Origin: an uncultured Bacilli bacterium | GTDB taxonomy: Bacteria; Bacillota_I; Bacilli_A; RFN20; CAG-449 | Assembly: GCA_947632435.1 (NCBI GenBank) | Contig: CANRPC010000008.1 | Coordinates: 1-64,000 of the forward strand | Length of the DNA: 64,000 bases | Reading direction: 5' to 3' | Shown here: positions 378-54,850 of the stretch, piece by piece | Layout: every line of letters starts with the position of its first letter | Numbering within the stretch: the first letter of the stretch is position 1 | Translations under genes and position numbers: made by a program | The notes under the pieces: generated by a model | Told to the model about the DNA's origin: nothing | The model's database searches: none | The model's input: only the letters and a program-made list of their open reading frames with translations

Positions 378-1331
378 ATGATAAAAAATTCAATTCTTTT
401 TTCTCTTACCGCTAATAAAGAATTAACAGAACAAGTTGCAAAATTATTAGACGTTTCTGTTACAGGTGTTAATGTCAATCACTTTGCTGATGGTGAAATA
501 ATTTGTGAACCTACAAGTTCTGTAAGAGATAAGAATTGTTACATTATTCAATCTACTTCAGCACCTGTTACTGAACATTTATTTGAATTATTAATTTTTG
601 TAGATGCGTTAAAAAGATCAAGTGCTAAAACTATAAATGTTATAATGCCTTATTTTGGATATGCTCGACAAGATCGTAAAAGTAAACCAAGACAACCAAT
701 TACTGCACGATTAGTCGCAGATTTATTAACAACAGCAGGTGTTCATAGAGTTATAAGTTTTGATTTACATGCTCCTCAAATTCAAGGATTTTTTTCTTGT
801 TTAGTTGATGAAATTACAGCAATACCATTAATTGCTAGTTATTATATCAAAAAAAATATTAAGGATATAGTTATTGTTTCTCCAGATCATGGAGGAGCAA
901 ATAGAGCAAGAAGAGTGGCTGAGAGATTAAATGCTCCTTTAGCTATCATAGATAAACGTAGAACTAGACCAAACGAAGCCGAAGTTATGAATATTATCGG
1001 TAATGTTAAAGATATGAATTGTTTAATTATTGATGATATGATTGATACTGCTGGAAGTTGTTCAGCAGCGGCAAAAGCATTGTTGCAAAATGGGGCCAAA
1101 TCAGTACAAATAGCTTGTATTCATGGAGTATTTTCAAGTGCTTCAAAAGAAAGATTGCTAGATGGCACATTTGAGGAAATTGTATGTACAGATTCTATTT
1201 CTTTGCCTGAATATATGGTAGGAAAAGTAAAAGTACTTTCTTTAGCACCTATGATTGCTATGACTATAGAACATATTGAAGGTGGTTTACCTTTATCTTC
1301 AGTTTATGATATCTATAACAATAATAAATAA
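378..1331 (+). CDS. prs: Ribose-phosphate pyrophosphokinase (PRPP synthetase)
   Basis: Makes 5-phosphoribosyl-1-pyrophosphate from ribose 5-phosphate and ATP in the cytosol, feeding purine, pyrimidine, NAD, His and Trp synthesis. The 317-residue length is normal for bacterial class I enzymes. The ATP-site loop YFGYARQDR lies at about 92-100, the PRPP synthetase signature DLHAPQIQGFF at 129-139, and the ribose-phosphate loop DDMIDTAGSC at 219-228. FADGE at 36-40 stands where most homologues have FSDGE. The ATG start is supported by a well placed GGAGGT. The gene is monocistronic and ends 19 bases before the stop codon of the convergent MATE gene. A short AT-rich inverted repeat around 1331-1352 may act as a weak shared terminator. 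Function is secure. Confidence 0.95.
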   Translation: MIKNSILFSLTANKELTEQVAKLLDVSVTGVNVNHFADGEIICEPTSSVRDKNCYIIQSTSAPVTEHLFELLIFVDALKRSSAKTINVIMPYFGYARQDRKSKPRQPITARLVADLLTTAGVHRVISFDLHAPQIQGFFSCLVDEITAIPLIASYYIKKNIKDIVIVSPDHGGANRARRVAERLNAPLAIIDKRRTRPNEAEVMNIIGNVKDMNCLIIDDMIDTAGSCSAAAKALLQNGAKSVQIACIHGVFSSASKERLLDGTFEEIVCTDSISLPEYMVGKVKVLSLAPMIAMTIEHIEGGLPLSSVYDIYNNNK

Positions 1332-6172: not shown

Positions 6173-8809
6173 TTATTTTCTTGGATTTTTAATGTTTGCT
6201 TGAGCCGCGGCAAGACGTGCTACTGGAACACGGAATGGGGAACAAGAAACATAATCTAATCCTGCATTATGATAGAATTCTATAGATTTTGGATCTCCAC
6301 CTGTTTCTCCACATACTCCAATATGTAAATCTTTTCTTGTGGAACGACCTAATTTAACTGACATTGTAACTAATTTACCAACACCGTTTTGGTCAAGTGT
6401 TTTAAATGGATCTTCTTCTAATATTTTGGTTTCATAATATGATGGTAAGAATTTAGCAGCATCATCACGTGAGAATCCAAAAGTCATTTGAGTTAAATCG
6501 TTAGTGCCAAATGAGAAGAATTCAGCCTCTGTGGCAATTTCATCCGCTAATAGGGCAGCTCTTGGAATTTCGATCATTGTACCTACGTGATATGTCATAT
6601 TAATTCCAGCTTCTTTAATTAATTTATCAGCAGTTTTTGTAATTAAGTTTTTAACAAATCGTAATTCTTTAACTTCTAAGACAAGAGGAATCATGATTTC
6701 TGGAGTAATAACTTTTCCTGTTTTTTTAGAAACGTTAATTGCTGCTTTAATAATAGCAGTGGTTTGCATTTCGCAAATTTCAGGATAGGTAACAGCAAGA
6801 CGGCAGCCTCTATGTCCCATCATAGGATTTGCTTCATGAAGTTCAGCAATTCTTGCTTTAACTTGCTCAACAGATTTATTCGTAGCAACAGCAAGTTCTT
6901 CAATTAAATTATCTTCTTGAGGTAAAAATTCATGAAGAGGTGGATCTAATAAACGAACATTAACATTTAATTCGCCCATTATTTCATATAATCCTTCAAA
7001 GTCTTTTTGTTGCATTGGTTCAAGTTCATTTAATGCTGCGACACGTGCTTCTTTAGTATCAGCTAAAATCATTTTACGCATAGAGAAGATTCTATCTTTA
7101 TCAAAGAACATATGTTCAGTACGGCAAAGACCAATTCCTTTAGCGCCAAAATCTTTTGCTTTTTGAGCATCGCGAGGAGTATCAGCATTAGTACGAACTA
7201 CTAAAGCAGAGTTTTCTTCAACCCATTTCATAAGTCTAGCAAAATATCCAGAAGTTAAATCAGGATCCACTTTTTTAATAGTGCCTAAATAAATATTTCC
7301 TGTTGTTCCATCAATTGAGAACACATCTTGATCAGTATAAGTTTTTCCATTAATTGTAACTGTTCTTTTTTCTTCATCAATTAAAGCATCGCTACAACCA
7401 CATACGCAGCATTTACCCATTCCTCTTGCAACAACCGCAGCATGTGAAGTCATACCTCCACGCATTGTTAAGATAGCTTCACTTGCAACCATGCCTACGA
7501 TATCTTCAGGAGATGTTTCACTACGAACTAAAACAACTTTTTCACCTTTAGAATGTCTTGCTTCAGCTTCTTCTGCAGTAAATGCAAGTTTACCTGTTCC
7601 AGCACCAGGACCAGCAGCTAAGCCTTTAGCAATTGGTTGAACTTTAGCAAGTTCTTTTGGATCAAATCCAGGAAGTAAAGCAGTGTCAAATGTTAAAGCA
7701 TCAATTCTTAATACTGCTTCTTTTTCAGTAATTAAACCTTCATCAACTAAATCGCAAGCAATTTTTAAAGCAGCTGTTGCAGTTCTTTTACCATTACGAG
7801 TTTGTAAGAAGAATAATTTACCATCTTCCACGGTGAATTCCATATCTTGCATATCACGATAATGAAGTTCCATGTTTTTAATTGTTTGAATAAATTCTTC
7901 ATATACTTTTGGCATACGTTTTTTAAGTTCATCAATGTGATAAGGAGTACGAATTCCTGCGACAACATCTTCACCTTGAGCATTTGGTAAATATTCTGCT
8001 GAAACAACTTTTTCTCCTGTACCAGGATCACGTGAGAAAGCAACTCCTGTACCAGAAGTTTCTCCTTTGTTACCAAATACCATTGATTGAACATTAACAG
8101 CAGTTCCCCAAGAATAAGGAATATTATTCATCATACGATATTTATTAGCTCTAGGATTATCCCATGATCTAAATACCGCGGTTACAGCTTCCATTAATTG
8201 GACATATGGATCTGAAGGGAAATCTTCTTTGAATGTTTCTTTATAATAATTTTTATATTTTAATACTAATGATTTTAATTCTTCCGCGGTAACTTCAGTA
8301 TCAAATTTATATCCTCTTGATTCTTTTAATTCATCTAGCATTTTATCCATTGCAGTACGAGGATGACCTTTAGCAATGTTTGTAAACATTAAAATGAAAC
8401 GGCGATAGCTATCATATGCAAAGCGTTCATTATTTGTTTCTTTAGCTAAAATTTCTACAGTTTTGTCATTAAGACCTAAATTCAAAATAGTATCCATCAT
8501 TCCTGGCATAGAAACTCTTGCTCCAGAACGAACAGAAACTAATAAAGGATTTTTATCTCCACCAAAATTTTTCCCTGTTTCTTTTTCAATTACTTTAACA
8601 GCTTCTTTTATTTCTTTTATCAAATAATCAGGTAAAATTTTATTTGAATCATAATATAAAGTACAAGCTTCTGTGGTAATAGTAAATCCTTGAGGAATAG
8701 AAACTCCAATATGGGACATTTCTGCTAAACCTGCGCCTTTTCCGCCAAGGAGTTCTTTGCCTAAACCATAGGCTTCTTTAAATTGATAAACGTATTTCTT
8801 TTCTTTCAT
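6173..8809 (-). CDS. ppdK: Pyruvate, phosphate dikinase
   Basis: Interconverts pyruvate, ATP and phosphate with phosphoenolpyruvate, AMP and pyrophosphate. In anaerobes it often runs as a PPi-saving glycolytic step. The 878 residues match the family length. The N-terminal ATP-grasp domain starts with LGGKGAGLAEM (about 21-31), the phosphorylated His lies in GGMTSHAAVVARG (His 456), and the C-terminal PEP/pyruvate barrel contains RTEHMFFD and the catalytic CGETGGD near residue 832. The start follows AGGAGGAAAAA. The gene is transcribed alone between a TG-extended promoter and a good terminator. No PPDK regulatory kinase/phosphatase is nearby. The identification is secure. Confidence 0.97.
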   Translation of the reverse strand: MKEKKYVYQFKEAYGLGKELLGGKGAGLAEMSHIGVSIPQGFTITTEACTLYYDSNKILPDYLIKEIKEAVKVIEKETGKNFGGDKNPLLVSVRSGARVSMPGMMDTILNLGLNDKTVEILAKETNNERFAYDSYRRFILMFTNIAKGHPRTAMDKMLDELKESRGYKFDTEVTAEELKSLVLKYKNYYKETFKEDFPSDPYVQLMEAVTAVFRSWDNPRANKYRMMNNIPYSWGTAVNVQSMVFGNKGETSGTGVAFSRDPGTGEKVVSAEYLPNAQGEDVVAGIRTPYHIDELKKRMPKVYEEFIQTIKNMELHYRDMQDMEFTVEDGKLFFLQTRNGKRTATAALKIACDLVDEGLITEKEAVLRIDALTFDTALLPGFDPKELAKVQPIAKGLAAGPGAGTGKLAFTAEEAEARHSKGEKVVLVRSETSPEDIVGMVASEAILTMRGGMTSHAAVVARGMGKCCVCGCSDALIDEEKRTVTINGKTYTDQDVFSIDGTTGNIYLGTIKKVDPDLTSGYFARLMKWVEENSALVVRTNADTPRDAQKAKDFGAKGIGLCRTEHMFFDKDRIFSMRKMILADTKEARVAALNELEPMQQKDFEGLYEIMGELNVNVRLLDPPLHEFLPQEDNLIEELAVATNKSVEQVKARIAELHEANPMMGHRGCRLAVTYPEICEMQTTAIIKAAINVSKKTGKVITPEIMIPLVLEVKELRFVKNLITKTADKLIKEAGINMTYHVGTMIEIPRAALLADEIATEAEFFSFGTNDLTQMTFGFSRDDAAKFLPSYYETKILEEDPFKTLDQNGVGKLVTMSVKLGRSTRKDLHIGVCGETGGDPKSIEFYHNAGLDYVSCSPFRVPVARLAAAQANIKNPRK

Positions 8810-9672: not shown

Positions 9673-10842
9673 ATGAAAGGAAGAAGAAAGGCTTTATTTC
9701 TCTTACCATTTCTGTTAATGGGATGTAATAAAGTTCCAATAAGTTCACCTAATTCTTCTGAACAAGAAAGTTCTTCTAGCAGTGAATCAAGTAGTGAATT
9801 TAAGCAAAGTGATTCAAGTTCAATATTAGAAGAATTTGAATTTGATAAATATTATCATTCTGATTCTTGGGATGAACAAGTTGTAAATTTAATTTCTGTC
9901 GCAGTCAATAAAGACAATGCTCTTTCGGTTCCGTCGGTGAATGCAGAAAGTTTTGATTATTATTTGACTAATGATTCTCAATCAGGAATCGATGTTGCAG
10001 TTATTAATTGTTTTGGAATAAATGAAAATTCTATTGTAGAAGAATATGAAAATGCTTTAGTGGCTAAAGATTTTATGTTATCAAGTGAAAACCCATATGG
10101 TTATAAAGAATGTTCTTTAACAGAAGATTTGTCTGTACAATATGAGCTAACAGAAAACATAAACAAAGAAGTATATTTACAGTTAATGATTTATAAAGCA
10201 GAAATGCGTTTAGCTGAGTGGCCTGAAGAAGCTATAAAGCAAATAACTGATGAAAAAGTCCCAGTAGTAGAGGGGAAAAGTTATCAAGCTTTCGCGGATA
10301 TGACTATCGATTATAAACCAAGAATTATTATTTATACATACGAATCTATTTTTGATGATAGAGAATATGCTCAAAAATTAATAGATGAAGGGTTTAATGT
10401 AACAGTATCTCAATATTATTATGAAGCAACAAGTGATTTAGGATTACATATGTCTTTCATGTATGATGAATATGAAAAATACTTTACATTAATAATTTAC
10501 AATGATTGGCCATATTGTGATTTAAATTATCTTTTAGGATTTGATTTACCTAGACTTGATTATGAAGGTGCCGAATTTGATTATGATTATATTTATGATA
10601 ATGATAATTATGAAATATTAACACTTTATTATTCTAATGTTGATATTACTTCACTTACTCTTTATGGAGAATCATTAGAAAATATTGGCTTTAGTCAATA
10701 TGGAGATGTAAGTCAAAATCAAGGTGAATATCAAACCACCACAAAAGCATATGTTAAAAACTTAGATCAAGAAGAAGAACATTATATTGTTTTATCTTAT
10801 AGCGCTAAATTGAATATGTTAGCAATTGCTATTTATTATTAA
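9673..10842 (+). CDS. Putative lipoprotein with three related ~100-residue repeats
   Basis: A 389-residue predicted lipoprotein: basic N-terminus, hydrophobic core and lipobox LLMGC (Cys 18), then a Ser-rich linker to about residue 55. The rest appears to be three diverged repeats (about 65-177, 178-286, 287-389). Each is rich in Tyr, Asp and Glu and shares the pattern W...I...(LG).(D).P, then Y....L...GF.V, then a closing beta-like stretch such as TLIIYNDW or LAIAIYY. The same repeat occurs in the third gene of this operon. AGGAGG precedes the ATG. No enzyme motif is visible. It probably sits on the outer face of the membrane. Function unknown. Confidence 0.8.
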   Translation: MKGRRKALFLLPFLLMGCNKVPISSPNSSEQESSSSSESSSEFKQSDSSSILEEFEFDKYYHSDSWDEQVVNLISVAVNKDNALSVPSVNAESFDYYLTNDSQSGIDVAVINCFGINENSIVEEYENALVAKDFMLSSENPYGYKECSLTEDLSVQYELTENINKEVYLQLMIYKAEMRLAEWPEEAIKQITDEKVPVVEGKSYQAFADMTIDYKPRIIIYTYESIFDDREYAQKLIDEGFNVTVSQYYYEATSDLGLHMSFMYDEYEKYFTLIIYNDWPYCDLNYLLGFDLPRLDYEGAEFDYDYIYDNDNYEILTLYYSNVDITSLTLYGESLENIGFSQYGDVSQNQGEYQTTTKAYVKNLDQEEEHYIVLSYSAKLNMLAIAIYY

Positions 10843-44183: not shown

Positions 44184-44792
44184 TCAATAATTTGACAAAG
44201 AATATGCAATTGTAACAATTTTTATTTTTTTAGGATTTAATGTTTTTAAAAGTGACACACATTGTAATATTGTATTTCCAGTTGTAACAATATCATCCAC
44301 TAAAAGAAGATTTTTATTTTCCAATGTTATGTCCTTTTTTATCATAATATTTTTGCTTGCCACCTCTCTTTCTTTTTTGCTTAAATTTGCTTGTTTATAA
44401 TCTTTGGTTTTAAATAGTACTTTAGCCATTTTTAAATGTAAAGAAGCAAAAATTTTTTCTACATGATTAAAGCCTCTATTTTGATCATGTTCATAGTAAG
44501 AAGGAACAGGAATTAAAATATAGTTGAAAAATTTTAATTTTAAAAAGAAAGCATCATAATTTAAAAAAATAGGAGCTAAAGCAATATCGTTGCATCCTTT
44601 TAATTGATAAATCAAAGAAACAATTTTATCTTTATATGGATATAAAGAATAAACTCTAATATCATTAAAAGATTTTATTCTAGGCTTTCGATTTAAAGAA
44701 ATAAAACATTTTGGGCAGATATCTACTTTGAAAAATAAGGCTAAAAAACCCCATTTTTGAATTTTTTGAAAACAAATTAAGCAATTTGCCAT
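44184..44792 (-). CDS. comFC: ComF family protein (phosphoribosyltransferase-like)
   Basis: A 202-residue ComFC-type protein needed for DNA uptake in competent Firmicutes. It opens with a zinc-finger-like Cys set (CLICFQK... and CPKCF, about 4-30) and ends with a phosphoribosyltransferase domain holding LLVDDIVTTGNTI, the PRPP-loop motif, at about 163-175. The middle has PVPSYYEHDQNRGFNHVEKI, the family signature. Its start lies in the last codons of the comFA-like gene (16-base overlap). An inverted repeat GTCAAATT/AATTTGAC (44174-44196 on the plus strand) spans the stop codon. Other competence genes are outside the window. Confidence 0.9.
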   Translation of the reverse strand: MANCLICFQKIQKWGFLALFFKVDICPKCFISLNRKPRIKSFNDIRVYSLYPYKDKIVSLIYQLKGCNDIALAPIFLNYDAFFLKLKFFNYILIPVPSYYEHDQNRGFNHVEKIFASLHLKMAKVLFKTKDYKQANLSKKEREVASKNIMIKKDITLENKNLLLVDDIVTTGNTILQCVSLLKTLNPKKIKIVTIAYSLSNY

Positions 44793-45919
44793 TCGTTTGC
44801 CTTTTTAATTTTATTAATAGCAGTCTGCATTGAAAAAGTATTTTTATAGCCCAAAAAGAAGACATCACCAGTAGGAGAATCTATTTTTCTTCCAACTCTA
44901 CCTGATATTTGAATTAAACTTGCTGAATCATAAATCTTATGATCTGCATGATAAACTATAACTTGTAAATCTTTAACAGTCACCCCTCTTTCTAAAATGG
45001 AAGTTGTCACTAAATAATCATATTTTTTTTGTTTAAAATCATTAATTATATTTTCTCGATCTTCTTTTTTTGAATGTACAACATTACCTTTTTTAAAAAA
45101 CCATTTTAAAATAGAAAATAATTTTTCACTTTCCTCGATGGTTGGAGTAAAAATAAAACATTGTTTATTTTCTTTTTTGTAAGTATATAATTTTTTAATG
45201 ACAAAAAATAAATTTGAGATGATAGAAATTTTGATTTTGGGAATTGGCAAATCGACATTATGATATCTTCTTAATAATTCTAAATAGATACCATTGTTAT
45301 TTATCACTTCCAAAATTTTTTCTTCTTTTGGAGTTGCTGACATTAAAACATAAGTGCCTTTAATGGCTTTATAAAAGAAATGTTTTAAAACATCATTTCC
45401 TTCATAAGGGAAAGCATCTATTTCATCGAAAATTAGATAATCAAAATAATTTTCATAACGATATAATTGATGAGTTGTAAGTAAAATAATATCGCCTTCA
45501 AGCTTTTCAGTATGTCGATTATAAAGTGCAGTAACTTGGCTATTTAAAAAAGCTTTTTCAAAACGAGGTAATAAATCAATTACTACATCTTTTCTTGGAA
45601 TGACAAATCCTACAGTTTTATTTTCTTTTAAAGCATCTAAAATACTTTCAAAAACAATTTCTGTTTTACCTGCACCTGTTACAGCATAAAGGAAAACATT
45701 TTTTTTATTTTTTCTTGCTTTTACTAATTGATTAGAAATTTTTTCTTGTTCTTTACTTAAAGGATAATCTAAGTGAAGAGTTATATTTTTATTAATTAAT
45801 TTTTTTTGAGCTTTCTTTCCATTAAATGTTAAACATTTTCGACAATAATAAGAATTGTTAAAAAAAGAAAAGTATTCTTGATTGTTATTTCCACATCTAA
45901 GACAAACCATTTTTTTCAC
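44777..45919 (-). CDS. comFA: ComFA-like DEAD-box DNA helicase
   Basis: A 380-residue helicase, shorter than B. subtilis ComFA (about 460). A Cys4 zinc finger lies at the N-terminus (CLRCGNNN...YYCRKC, about 5-35). Then come Walker A YAVTGAGKTE, the DEAD-like FDEIDAFPY, SATPKEE as motif III, and motifs V and VI TSILERGVTV and QISGRVGRK. In competent cells this ATPase helps pull in single-stranded DNA. It is followed by comFC in the same operon. A TATTAT box and GAGGTGAA precede the ATG. PriA-like helicases are excluded by length and by the neighbouring comFC. Confidence 0.9.
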   Translation of the reverse strand: MKKMVCLRCGNNNQEYFSFFNNSYYCRKCLTFNGKKAQKKLINKNITLHLDYPLSKEQEKISNQLVKARKNKKNVFLYAVTGAGKTEIVFESILDALKENKTVGFVIPRKDVVIDLLPRFEKAFLNSQVTALYNRHTEKLEGDIILLTTHQLYRYENYFDYLIFDEIDAFPYEGNDVLKHFFYKAIKGTYVLMSATPKEEKILEVINNNGIYLELLRRYHNVDLPIPKIKISIISNLFFVIKKLYTYKKENKQCFIFTPTIEESEKLFSILKWFFKKGNVVHSKKEDRENIINDFKQKKYDYLVTTSILERGVTVKDLQVIVYHADHKIYDSASLIQISGRVGRKIDSPTGDVFFLGYKNTFSMQTAINKIKKANEWQIA

Positions 45920-45980: not shown

Positions 45981-46190
45981 TTATTCTATCATATTTTTCA
46001 TTATCATTTTTATAGTTCTAATGGACTTTCTAGTCAACTTAGCAATTTCTTCTTGTTTTACTGATTCGCTATTTTTATTAATATTAATGATTGTTAGTTC
46101 TTCTAAAAAGTATTTACTATTATTTAAAACATTTTTACTATCTTCATTCTTAAAATCTATATGCGTATATCGATTTTTAAGCTCAAGCAT
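45981..46190 (-). CDS. Possible small helix-turn-helix protein
   Basis: A 69-codon frame starting MLELKNRYTHIDF and ending with KQEEIAKLTRKSIRTIKMIM, a stretch patterned like a helix-turn-helix (Q-EE-IAK-...-S-RTI). Composition is similar to real genes here, while the overlapping frame on the other strand is Ile/Phe/Leu-biased and looks like noise. A TATAAT (46215-46210 on the minus strand) lies 20 bases upstream and an 8-bp dyad around it could be an operator, but the ribosome site is weak (AAAGAA). It may be a small regulator or a gene remnant. Confidence 0.35.
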   Translation of the reverse strand: MLELKNRYTHIDFKNEDSKNVLNNSKYFLEELTIININKNSESVKQEEIAKLTRKSIRTIKMIMKNMIE

Positions 46191-46223
46191 CACATTCTTT
46201 ATAAATATTATTATATAACTAAA

Positions 46224-46254
46224 AGTGCAAAATTTGCTCTTTGGCGTTTGCACT
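46224..46254. repeat. Inverted repeat, operator-like
   Basis: AGTGCAAA (46224-46231) and TTTGCACT (46247-46254) are exact complements separated by 15 bases. They lie just upstream of the -10 box of the small helix-turn-helix frame on the minus strand, in the place expected for an operator. Confidence 0.45.
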
Positions 46255-46436
46255 AATGATGTCATAAAAATCTTTTTATTATGTTATTAATTACTCATTT
46301 TTAACACTTTATGAGCAAAATCTTTTTATTATGACAGACTAAAGTCATTTTATATAAACTGAATTTACTTTGTCATTTATGATCTAAAATTAACTATTGA
46401 TTTTTACAATTTACTTAATTAAAATATAAACAAGGT

Positions 46437-46533
46437 TTATATAGCAGACCCTTTGCATTTAATGTAATAAAGACAGGTGAGTAGAATTAGCACTCACACG
46501 GAAGTAAAGGCTATATCTTTCACTTCCTTTTTT
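46437..46533 (+). ncRNA. Structured small RNA candidate with riboswitch-like folding
   Basis: A promoter TTTACA (46403-46408), 16 bases, TATAAA (46425-46430) points to a start near 46437. Four helices can be drawn. P1 is ATATAGC (46439-46445) with GCTATAT (46510-46516), extended after a five-base bulge by CTTT (46451-46454) with AAAG (46506-46509). P2 is GTGAGT/ACTCAC near 46478-46497. A terminator, GGAAGT-AAAG (46500-46509) with CTTT-ACTTCC (46517-46527), is followed by T7. The P1 3' strand is the terminator stem and loop, so the two folds are exclusive, as in riboswitches. The GC is higher than in the flanks. No plus-strand gene follows before the convergent spoIIQ, so a free-standing regulatory RNA is possible. 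No known family was recognised. Confidence 0.6.
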
Positions 46534-46593
46534 TATTTCTTAATATTTATTGAATAATACTTAGCTTACAAATAAAATTTAATGATTAAAAAG

Positions 46594-46626
46594 CAAAAAA
46601 TGTGGATGATAAAATCAACCACATAT
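46594..46626 (-). terminator. spoIIQ terminator
   Basis: On the minus strand ATGTGG-T-TGA pairs with TCA-T-CCACAT around TTTTA and runs into T6. It lies 40 bases after the spoIIQ stop and faces the plus-strand small RNA terminator. Confidence 0.8.
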
Positions 46627-46665: not shown

Positions 46666-47367
46666 TTAAATTTCTTGTACGGAATTTGAATAAGCAGTTT
46701 CAGGGTTTATATGTTTTCCATCTTTTAAGATTTCAAAATGTAAACTTGATTTAAAATCGCTTGTGTATAAAGATGTACCTGATGTAGCAATTACTTGCCC
46801 TTGCTTAACTTCATCGCCTTTATTGAATTTGATATTTTCTAAAGAGGCATAATATAATTTAACACCTGATTTGTGTTCAATAACAACGATATTTCCATAC
46901 ATAGGATCATTCATTTTTTCTAATACTTGGCCAGATAAAGAAGCGACAACATTAAATGTTTCATCTTTTTCATTAACATAGTCAACGCCTAAACTTTTAA
47001 TATAATTTTGCGTTCCTGGAACTTTAATAATTGACATTTTTCTTTTTTCAATAGGATCCTCAGCGTTGTAAAAGAAATGCTTTGCTGTTTGATTTCCTTC
47101 ATATGGTCTTATAAATTCTTCAAGCATGACATCAACCTCAGGGGTAGTAGGTGATGTTACATGATTAGAACTAGTAGTTTGATTTCCATTACTTGTTGGA
47201 TTTGATGTACTAGTATTTAAATTATTAGAACTCATAATAGATGAGGATCCTTCGTTATTAGATAAAACAACAGCACTTGTAAAGATAACTACTGCACCTA
47301 AGCTTAATGCTAAACCTGCCTTTGCTTCACTGCTCCATGAAGCGATACTTTTAAATGGATTTTTCAT
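46666..47367 (-). CDS. spoIIQ: SpoIIQ-like degenerate LytM (M23) protein
   Basis: A 233-residue single-pass membrane protein: cytosolic 16 residues, helix at about 17-36, a Ser/Asn/Thr-rich linker (37-78) and a LytM domain (about 110-228). The fold is clear from VVASLSGQVLEKMNDPMYGN, VIEHKSGVKLYYASL and the closing SSLHFEILKDGKHINPETAY. Both zinc motifs are broken: HxxxD reads SLGVD (about 115-119) and HxH reads SLH (208-210), so it should not cut peptidoglycan. In B. subtilis the forespore protein SpoIIQ, also degenerate, pairs with SpoIIIAH across the septum. The sigma-F-type promoter and neighbours support that role here. An ordinary M23 peptidase is excluded by the lost ligands. Confidence 0.82.
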   Translation of the reverse strand: MKNPFKSIASWSSEAKAGLALSLGAVVIFTSAVVLSNNEGSSSIMSSNNLNTSTSNPTSNGNQTTSSNHVTSPTTPEVDVMLEEFIRPYEGNQTAKHFFYNAEDPIEKRKMSIIKVPGTQNYIKSLGVDYVNEKDETFNVVASLSGQVLEKMNDPMYGNIVVIEHKSGVKLYYASLENIKFNKGDEVKQGQVIATSGTSLYTSDFKSSLHFEILKDGKHINPETAYSNSVQEI

Positions 47368-52717: not shown

Positions 52718-54850
52718 TTAATTTCTTTTTTCAATTTTTAAGACAACTAAAGTTTTATCATCATTTATTAATGATTCTTGTAAAAGTGCTTCTTTTATTT
52801 GATGATGTATCTCTTTAGCGCTTAAAGAAGAAGAACAAGATAAAACCATTTCTATAGTTTCTTTTACTTCTTCTTTAAAACCATCGGTTAAAAAGATTAA
52901 AATATCATTAAATTCTAAATAGTCTTGATAAGCAAAAGGAGTTATTTCTTCTAAAATACCTAAAGGAGGAAAATTCTTTTTTGATTCTTTGATTTTATCT
53001 TTATGAAAAATATAATTTGGAAAAGAACCAGCTTTAAATAAATTAAATTGCAACGTTGTTAAATCAATTGTTAAATAATCTAAAGTTGCATAGGCATCTT
53101 GAGTTGATTTGTTATATAAAAGATTATTTACGGTTTGGATTTGTTTAGCAAAGTCGCTATTTAAAGCTTTAAACGCTAATAAGGATTCAACTAAAAATTC
53201 GCTTAAAGAAGCTGAATAAGAAGAATGTCCCATACCATCACTTAGTAAGAAAATAAATTTATTGTCATTAGTTATTAGTTTTAAATAATCGCCACTTTTA
53301 TTATTTACACCATCATTAGAATAATAATAATCAATTTTATATTGAGCTTTAAAAGTAAATAATAATATATAACATCCTGAAGAAAAAGAATAAGCACTTT
53401 TAATAAATGAAGGCATTTTTTGATATACTTCATAAATTATATCTTTAATTCTTGTTAAATCATCTTGATCAAAATGAAGAATTCTTATTTCTAATTCATC
53501 ATCATATTCAGCACATTCTAAAATTTTTAATTCTTCATCTTTTAATAATTCTTTTAATTTTTTTGGTAAAGAAATTTCTTCTTTTTCTAATAAGAGCAAA
53601 GGAGTATATATATTACTTAATTCTTTTTTATAGGCATTTTGTAATTCTAAAGTTTTATTTACTTTATCATATTCTCTTTGATAAATATCACGCATAATTT
53701 CACTTTGTTTAAAGAATTTATAAGGTGAAGAACAAAAATTTAAAACACTTCCTCTTTCTTGTTGATTTAATTTGGTAGAGATACTTTTAAGTTGCAAAGT
53801 TTTTAATGAACAAGTTTTTTCTTTTTGACAATTACTACATAAATTGTAATTAAATTGATTTAAAACTTTTTCTTGAGGTGAATCTTTATCTTCTAAATTT
53901 GGAGAAAGAACATAATTAATATATTTTTTAATATCATTAATAACATTTTTTTCTTTTTGATTGTTTTCTTTTTTTTCTTGATAAAAAAATAGATGGACTT
54001 TTTCATATCCTTGATCAGAAATAAATATTCCTAAGATAAAAGCAATTAAACTTTGATAAAAATTTTCATTAATATAAAATTCTTGAACAAATAAAGCTTC
54101 ATATATAACAAAGAATAAAGCATAAGTAAATAAATTATGTTTATTAAAGAAGAACCAATTTATCAAAAAAGGAATAATTAAAGAAAAGATTATAATTATA
54201 TCGATTTTACATAAATAATAAAGTAAAAATGAAGATAAAAGCATAGCAATTAAGCTTTCTTCATGCTTTAAAGTTTTTAAATAAAAAATATGTAATGATT
54301 GAAGAATTAATATTAAAAATGGATCAGAGCCTAAAAAGAATAAAGGAAATAAACAAAAAGAAAGAATGCGATTTTTCTCAGGTATTTTAGCTTTGTATTT
54401 AATATTTTTAACCATTGGGTAAAAACCATATAAAGCAATAAGCGATAAAGAAAAATTAAATATTACTTTTAAAATATTTGTTAAAGATGTATCTAAACTT
54501 ATTAAATATATATCAAAGATTAAAGAAATAATAAAAAAAGGAGCATAATCTTTTATAAAACGATTATTAAAAAAGCTATTAACAATAACTTTTAAAAAGA
54601 AAAAACCGCTGGTGATAAAAGTGATTAATAACCCATATTGATAAGAAAAAATAAAAGAAAACATTATGGTTACAAGATTAAAAACTACATAAGTTCTAAA
54701 TCGATAATTCGCACATAATGTTAATAAAACAATAAAATAGGGATGTAAGATAAAAAAATCATTTTTTAATAAAACAAAAACAGCAAGAATAATAACTATA
54801 GCTACATCTAAGGTAAAGCAATCTTTTATTTTGGTTAATATTTTTTTCAT
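52718..54850 (-). CDS. spoIIE: Stage II sporulation protein E, phosphatase
   Basis: Membrane serine phosphatase that releases sigma-F in the forespore. The 710 residues fit the family: about ten helices in the first 300, a central region, then a PP2C domain (about 510-705) with FLLSDGMGHSSYSA and metal motifs, and LIFLTDGFKEEV near the end. A Cys4-like set (CSNCQKEKTCS) in the centre is unusual but occurs in clostridial forms. The gene order divIC-spoIIE-tilS matches Bacillus. Its promoter region has two Spo0A-like boxes. AAGGAAG precedes the ATG. Together with spoIIQ and yabPQ it shows this lineage can sporulate. Confidence 0.9.
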   Translation of the reverse strand: MKKILTKIKDCFTLDVAIVIILAVFVLLKNDFFILHPYFIVLLTLCANYRFRTYVVFNLVTIMFSFIFSYQYGLLITFITSGFFFLKVIVNSFFNNRFIKDYAPFFIISLIFDIYLISLDTSLTNILKVIFNFSLSLIALYGFYPMVKNIKYKAKIPEKNRILSFCLFPLFFLGSDPFLILILQSLHIFYLKTLKHEESLIAMLLSSFLLYYLCKIDIIIIFSLIIPFLINWFFFNKHNLFTYALFFVIYEALFVQEFYINENFYQSLIAFILGIFISDQGYEKVHLFFYQEKKENNQKEKNVINDIKKYINYVLSPNLEDKDSPQEKVLNQFNYNLCSNCQKEKTCSLKTLQLKSISTKLNQQERGSVLNFCSSPYKFFKQSEIMRDIYQREYDKVNKTLELQNAYKKELSNIYTPLLLLEKEEISLPKKLKELLKDEELKILECAEYDDELEIRILHFDQDDLTRIKDIIYEVYQKMPSFIKSAYSFSSGCYILLFTFKAQYKIDYYYSNDGVNNKSGDYLKLITNDNKFIFLLSDGMGHSSYSASLSEFLVESLLAFKALNSDFAKQIQTVNNLLYNKSTQDAYATLDYLTIDLTTLQFNLFKAGSFPNYIFHKDKIKESKKNFPPLGILEEITPFAYQDYLEFNDILIFLTDGFKEEVKETIEMVLSCSSSLSAKEIHHQIKEALLQESLINDDKTLVVLKIEKRN

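Follow-up and report, generated by a model that had tools for sequence, protein, structure and literature searches.

A small RNA gene probably shared by the chromosome of an uncultured Bacilli bacterium and an inovirus-like element

Results

In the window, by which we mean the whole stretch of 64,000 nucleotides that was analyzed from an uncultured gut-type Bacilli bacterium, comFA (44777–45919, minus strand) and spoIIQ (46666–47367, minus strand) lie approximately 750 bases apart. The gap between them contains a 94-aa ORF (45981–46265, minus strand), a palindrome (46331–46376), and a plus-strand RNA element. The product of spoIIQ is a Peptidase_M23 protein; the gene is convergent with the RNA, and a terminator scan placed its own minus-strand terminator near 46600. 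No plus-strand gene was found in the window 3' of the RNA terminator and before spoIIQ, in agreement with an earlier sequence-only reading of this DNA. In most family relatives with a readable junction, comFA and spoIIQ abut directly, and the RNA element was found at this junction in none of them.

The comFA–spoIIQ junction is a variable insertion site among relatives (L039, L042, L044, L049). The inserts comprise a DUF4143 AAA ATPase (G001), an AbiEi-like antitoxin (G013), an M48 peptidase gene (G005), a 300-aa ORF without assignment (G015), and, in the window, a Fic remnant together with the RNA. The 94-aa ORF (45981–46265, minus strand) is what remains of a Fic/DOC-family protein that has lost its catalytic part, namely the winged-helix part at the C-terminal end. 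This region matched a 364-aa homologue in a tblastn search (E 3e-11), and a related 346-aa homologue carries the Fic domain PF02661. A faint match to another part of a Fic-family protein was observed at 53042–53236 on the minus strand of the window (tblastn E 0.07). Where the Fic remnant starts, the 17-base exact direct repeat AAAATCTTTTTATTATG occurs at 46267–46283 and 46317–46333 with a spacing of 50 bases. The palindrome, TGACAGACTAAA...TGAATTTACTTTGTCA, occupies ~47 bases (46331–46377) immediately 5' of the RNA and is unrelated to it. It has the form of joined inverted repeats, like transposon ends, and copies are also present in several family genomes (G000:C16:24100–24194; L150–L155). 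An HTH protein adjoining one of these copies (L154) could not be placed in any transposase family. A minus-strand reading of the RNA element, as the leader of the 94-aa ORF, was rejected because the ORF is a Fic-family remnant and the T-run is present on the plus strand only.

We examined the anatomy of the RNA element by consensus scanning, terminator scanning, and folding. A consensus scan revealed a -35 hexamer TTGATT (46397–46402, plus strand) and, at a spacing of 17 nt, a -10 hexamer TAAAAT (46420–46425, plus strand). The RNA that would start from this promoter is ~100 nt long and spans 46432–46534 on the plus strand; its 5' end near 46432 was placed from the -10 site, with an uncertainty of a few bases. 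It ends in an intrinsic terminator (46500–46534, plus strand) formed by GGAAGTAAAGG/CTTTCACTTCC and T7, with 11 pairs, a C bulge at 46521, and a pairing probability of 0.95. Upstream of the terminator is a 6-bp hairpin, GTGAGT-AGAATTAGC-ACTCAC (46477–46497, plus strand), also with a pairing probability of 0.95. A possible 5' hairpin, GGTTT/AGACC with the loop ATATAGC (46434–46450, plus strand), had a pairing probability of 0.81–0.83 in the window RNA. When 46432–46534 was compared with shuffled sequences, 26 of 500 shuffles matched or beat its folding, and the fold of the whole segment was moderately above that of shuffles (z -2.5).

The sequence-only reading had described a good promoter and about 90 bases of RNA with paired arms, closed by a T7 terminator. 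The terminator was found as described. The paired arms are represented by the hairpin at 46477–46497, and the size was revised to ~100 nt. The promoter appears to be real, its hexamers being kept in the homologue described below, and its position was shifted to the hexamers given above. Within the window itself it is at chance level: 10 promoter-like sites were observed against 11.3 expected by chance, so that in DNA this AT-rich such a site is no evidence when taken alone. The segment has its own promoter and terminator, contains no ORF, and is kept as a unit, as expected of an intrinsically terminated sRNA gene. Judged from these sequence features, this is a small RNA gene that stands alone, in which a predicted promoter of the sigma-A type (TTGATT-17-TAAAAT) is followed by an RNA of ~100 nt that ends in an intrinsic terminator of its own.

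The sequence-only reading had further noted a closing helix (46439–46516, plus strand) that would be exclusive with the terminator. This helix is present. It pairs ATATAGC (46439–46445) with GCTATAT (46510–46516) and CTTTGC (46451–46456) with GTAAAG (46504–46509), giving 13 pairs with a 5-base bulge, and it is also mutually exclusive with the 5' hairpin at 46434–46450. When the upstream RNA was dinucleotide-shuffled and the left arm of the terminator kept fixed, 17.6% of the shuffles reached at least 13 such pairs and 31% folded equally well. At least 13 competing pairs were likewise found for 6 of the 57 terminators scanned, the terminator of the RNA itself included. The closing helix is therefore no more than chance would produce. 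Its pairing probability in the full-length RNA was ~0.0003, while in a transcript ending at 46518 the competing helix would form in both copies of the RNA (-14.3 and -14.5 kcal/mol). No family in Rfam 15 matched the RNA at the gathering threshold, and loose thresholds gave chance matches only, with no riboswitch family among them.

A search with a 335-base query of all 279 genomes of the order (278 besides that of the window) returned a single homologue, in which G198:C35:10200–10367 matched window 46388–46554 with 86% identity over 167 bp (E 1.4e-49). A two-sequence covariance model run on the same 279 genomes recovered both known copies and nothing else credible. No copy of the RNA was found in a 395-genome sample of the class, with single-sequence covariance models in 57 relatives, or with exact patterns of the RNA in GTDB and IMG/VR. 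BLAST with a 131-base query against 97 relatives, and searches of phage and plasmid collections, yielded AT-rich scraps only. A 23-bit model match at window 1210–1300 lies antisense inside a 317-aa gene, and a match in G164:C53 (27.7 bits) lacks the hairpin and has a different terminator sequence; both were dismissed as chance, as was an IMG/VR match of GTAGAATTAGCACTCACA in unrelated repetitive DNA. The search of 97 relatives gave no homologue and that of the whole order gave one, indicating that a search confined to near relatives can miss a homologue; the earlier null searches alone would suggest a "species-specific" RNA.

The two copies were then compared without gaps. The -35 hexamer TTGATT was identical (6/6), the spacer was identical at 10 of 17 positions (59%; seven differing), and the -10 hexamer at 5 of 6, TAAAAT in the window being TAGAAT in the homologue. 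Between 46434–46534 and positions 10246–10346 of the homologous contig (L157), 94 of 101 positions were identical (93%). The flanks showed 42% identity in the 60 bases 5' of the -35 hexamer and 30% at 46555–46614, 3' of the terminator, against a baseline of 31 ± 6% for random 60-mers from both sequences. The spacer had diverged more than the RNA (Fisher P 7e-4). Because identity is bounded by the -35 box and the T-run and the flanks are near random, the promoter, the RNA, and the terminator are conserved together as a unit. This pattern supports the predicted transcription unit, in that the part free to vary has varied. The conservation could partly come from a fairly recent transfer and not from selection on both copies.

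Seven differences separate the two RNAs. The terminator is kept in the homologue, and the 9-base loop AGAATTAGC and the GACCCUUU stretch show no change. The A-to-G difference at 46480, in the hairpin at 46477–46497, keeps a G-U pair, and that at 46508 changes an A-U pair of the terminator to G-U, so that the pair is kept. Overall, the seven differences keep all but one pair in the 5' hairpins and all pairs in the closing helix; the 5' hairpin at 46434–46450 is absent from the minimum-energy fold of the homologue. With two copies and seven differences, random placement of the changes equaled the observed pattern in 24–45% of cases (P 0.24–0.45), so the differences neither support nor refute any helix.

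The homologue is located on a phage contig (L157; G198:C35) of 11,565 bases in a metagenome-assembled genome that is 89% complete. The minus strand of this contig encodes a Rep protein, a 713-aa membrane ATPase, a 548-aa secreted protein with a membrane anchor predicted from sequence at its C-terminus, several small membrane proteins, and an IS481-like integrase. Rep matched PF23343 (ORF2/G2P, 9e-13) and was weakly similar to replication initiators in Inoviridae records. The ATPase, a large Walker-type protein adjoining rep, matched no named family in Pfam and NCBIfam, and no relatives of the ATPase, Rep, or integrase were found in IMG/VR. Relatives of the ATPase were present in 21 of 196 genomes, including members of the window's family, and no copy was found in the window's genome. 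The element resembles inoviruses (PMC6813254) in its G2P-type Rep, the membrane ATPase alongside it, and the integrase, and differs from them in that its ATPase has no Pfam or NCBIfam match and no IMG/VR relative. From its sequence the element appears inovirus-like; because the ATPase belongs to no named family, membership in Inoviridae is unproven. Inovirus-like elements with this ATPase are an uncatalogued lineage, given these null results in Pfam, NCBIfam, and IMG/VR.

Members of this lineage are L157 and L195–L214, with the IS481-like integrase in the closer ones. The integrase is also found 3' of rep in other elements, at 72–85% identity. The nearest relatives of the phage contig's ATPase (67% and 52%) are found in the family of the window; the host assignment of the contig is therefore uncertain, and the contig may be mis-binned.

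On the phage contig, the RNA copy (10246–10346) is on the plus strand, opposite all main phage genes. Its terminator overlaps a 143-aa gene at that gene's 3' end (stop at 10332), and ~40 bases separate its promoter from the point where the next small minus-strand ORF presumably starts. The gene ahead of the phage copy is convergent, with its 3' end toward the RNA, and neither copy is followed by a gene that it could regulate from upstream. In the stretches examined of 20 related elements with the same ATPase, several of them incomplete, no recognisable copy of the RNA was observed; the RNA thus appears to be accessory in the phage. Presence in a phage-like genome, absence from related elements, sharp borders, and its own promoter and terminator are features of a phage moron. 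No remnant of a phage protein was found in the window.

Discussion

Among the 279 genomes of the order, the RNA gene was found only in the chromosome of the window and in a filamentous-phage-like element. At the sequence level, we show a putative unit with sharp borders that occurs in two contexts, in one of which, the phage-like element, it is antisense to the phage genes. Very probably, it is an sRNA gene common to chromosome and phage. The anatomy of the RNA gene is ordinary, its family is unregistered, and its phage link is unexpected. The sequence-only reading had offered a free-standing regulatory RNA among its options, and this option is supported by a promoter, RNA, and terminator conserved as a unit in two contexts with no gene behind. 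The segment is probably a small phage-related regulatory RNA and not a riboswitch, and a speculative switch is thus replaced by a concrete and testable object, an RNA gene of ~100 nt. The best explanation overall, to which we assign a probability of about one half, is a stand-alone, phage-shared sRNA gene with a possible role in antisense regulation or immunity.

The mechanism that we put forward is tentative and, in our estimate, less likely than not. In the phage, the RNA would base-pair with polycistronic phage mRNA in the stretch that separates the 143-aa gene from the next small ORF, assuming that a sense transcript crosses the RNA region, and pairing would dampen phage expression. The lone chromosomal copy would be expressed from its own promoter, and its RNA, 93% identical, might pair in trans with the mRNA of incoming phage relatives, which would make it a superinfection-immunity RNA. 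The antisense orientation to the phage genes, taken alone, had a one-in-two chance of arising. The fuller account, in which a phage-derived antisense RNA that outlived its prophage is kept in the chromosome and protects this uncultured Bacilli species against a filamentous phage, is doubtful. Should the RNA indeed counter the phage, the host would have a simple defence consisting of RNA alone, kept without the prophage.

The main rival to the antisense or immunity reading is an sRNA that would act in trans on host targets. Phages would carry it as an RNA "moron" because it alters host expression, and its antisense orientation would be incidental. We consider this a serious candidate, if short of even odds. 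The moron anatomy, with its own promoter, terminator, and sharp borders, fits it, as do the loop AGAATTAGC and the GACCCUUU stretch that are the same in both copies, and precedents exist in E. coli in AgvB and AsxR (PMC4104026) and svsR (PMC12803456). Against it, no host target emerged when 61 start regions of the window and of the phage contig were scanned. The scan gave one strong score, which was rejected as the ORF was judged spurious, lying antisense across the start of another gene. The unit might also serve phage replication or packaging, as a complementary-strand origin or packaging hairpin, its chromosomal copy being a dead remnant. It does sit in an intergenic region of the phage, and its transcript would template on the presumed viral strand like a complementary-strand primer. 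This explanation is nevertheless improbable: the viral strand as ssDNA folds no better than shuffles (z -0.65, DNA parameters), an origin has no need of a T7 terminator and exact promoter hexamers, no recognisable copy of the RNA unit was observed in the stretches examined of other elements with the same ATPase, and no other phage sequence accompanies the chromosomal copy. A dead remnant should also have decayed evenly in spacer and RNA, which was not seen.

The view that the RNA is a riboswitch, attenuator, or sensor is not supported, since the closing helix is no better than chance, neither copy has a gene behind it, the two copies differ entirely in what lies downstream, the DNA there being unrelated, and no riboswitch family matches even at loose thresholds. 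The form of this view that the sequence-only reading had suggested, a relic of a switch whose gene was lost, gains something from the competing helix that both copies form when the RNA is cut at 46518. This helix is nearly absent from the full-length ensemble, however, and the promoter hexamers and terminator are kept where the flanks are not, which disfavours a relic; we regard it as very improbable. Least probable of all is that the segment has no function and combines a chance terminator with sites that happen to resemble promoters in an AT-rich intergenic region. In favour of this reading, the terminator is the one clearly distinctive feature when the window is taken alone, and the RNA is absent from the genus and family relatives and from all but one other genome of the order. 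A 101-nt copy that is 93% identical, lies in a distant context, and is bounded by the -35 box and the T-run (E 1e-49) already refutes the reading as stated; a version of it could survive only if a piece lacking function had been transferred very recently.

Most of the known phage-borne sRNAs come from tailed phages of enterobacteria. To our knowledge, there is no antisense immunity RNA for the filamentous phage group. In a 2025 review of phage-derived sRNAs, the word inovirus is absent. Among known systems, STnc6030, an antisense RNA of the Salmonella prophage BTP1 that excludes superinfection (PMC7067206), resembles the RNA described here in being phage-borne, non-coding, and opposite phage genes, which are structural genes in BTP1. 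STnc6030 excludes superinfection when supplied from a plasmid to a host that lacks the prophage; its function has been shown (PMC7067206), whereas an immunity function is proposed for the present RNA. STnc6030 is also larger (786 nt, predicted, against ~100 nt), belongs to a tailed phage, and is antisense to coding genes (PMC7067206), whereas the present RNA lies for the most part opposite an intergenic leader and the end (3') of a single gene. The c4 RNA of phages P1 and P7 is a small structured antisense RNA with a role in immunity that acts on phage mRNA, pairing around the ribosome-binding site of the ant mRNA (PMC12197685). Compared with c4, the present RNA has its own promoter and intrinsic terminator, and no sequence relation to c4 was found, there being no Rfam match. 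AsxR and AgvB, the anti-sRNAs of lambdoid prophages, act on host sRNAs (PMC4104026), and svsR is a phage-borne sRNA with host targets in E. coli (PMC12803456). AsxR and AgvB share with the present RNA the form of short sRNA genes in phage genomes at a moron site, and differ from it in their length of 51–60 nt, against ~100 nt, and in belonging to tailed E. coli phages (PMC4104026).

Other terminator-like sequences were observed in these elements. In L196, an antisense-oriented terminator hairpin, ACCTAGACCCTTTGTCTAGG, is present near 8312 on the minus strand, just 5' of the gene that encodes the ATPase in the G012 element. The 10-mer AGACCCTTTG occurs both in this hairpin and in the 5' part of the window RNA, which may be chance. 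On the phage contig, near 8862 on the plus strand, a second terminator, AGAGAATGTTGAAAAATCAACATTCCC followed by T7, also lies opposite the phage genes.
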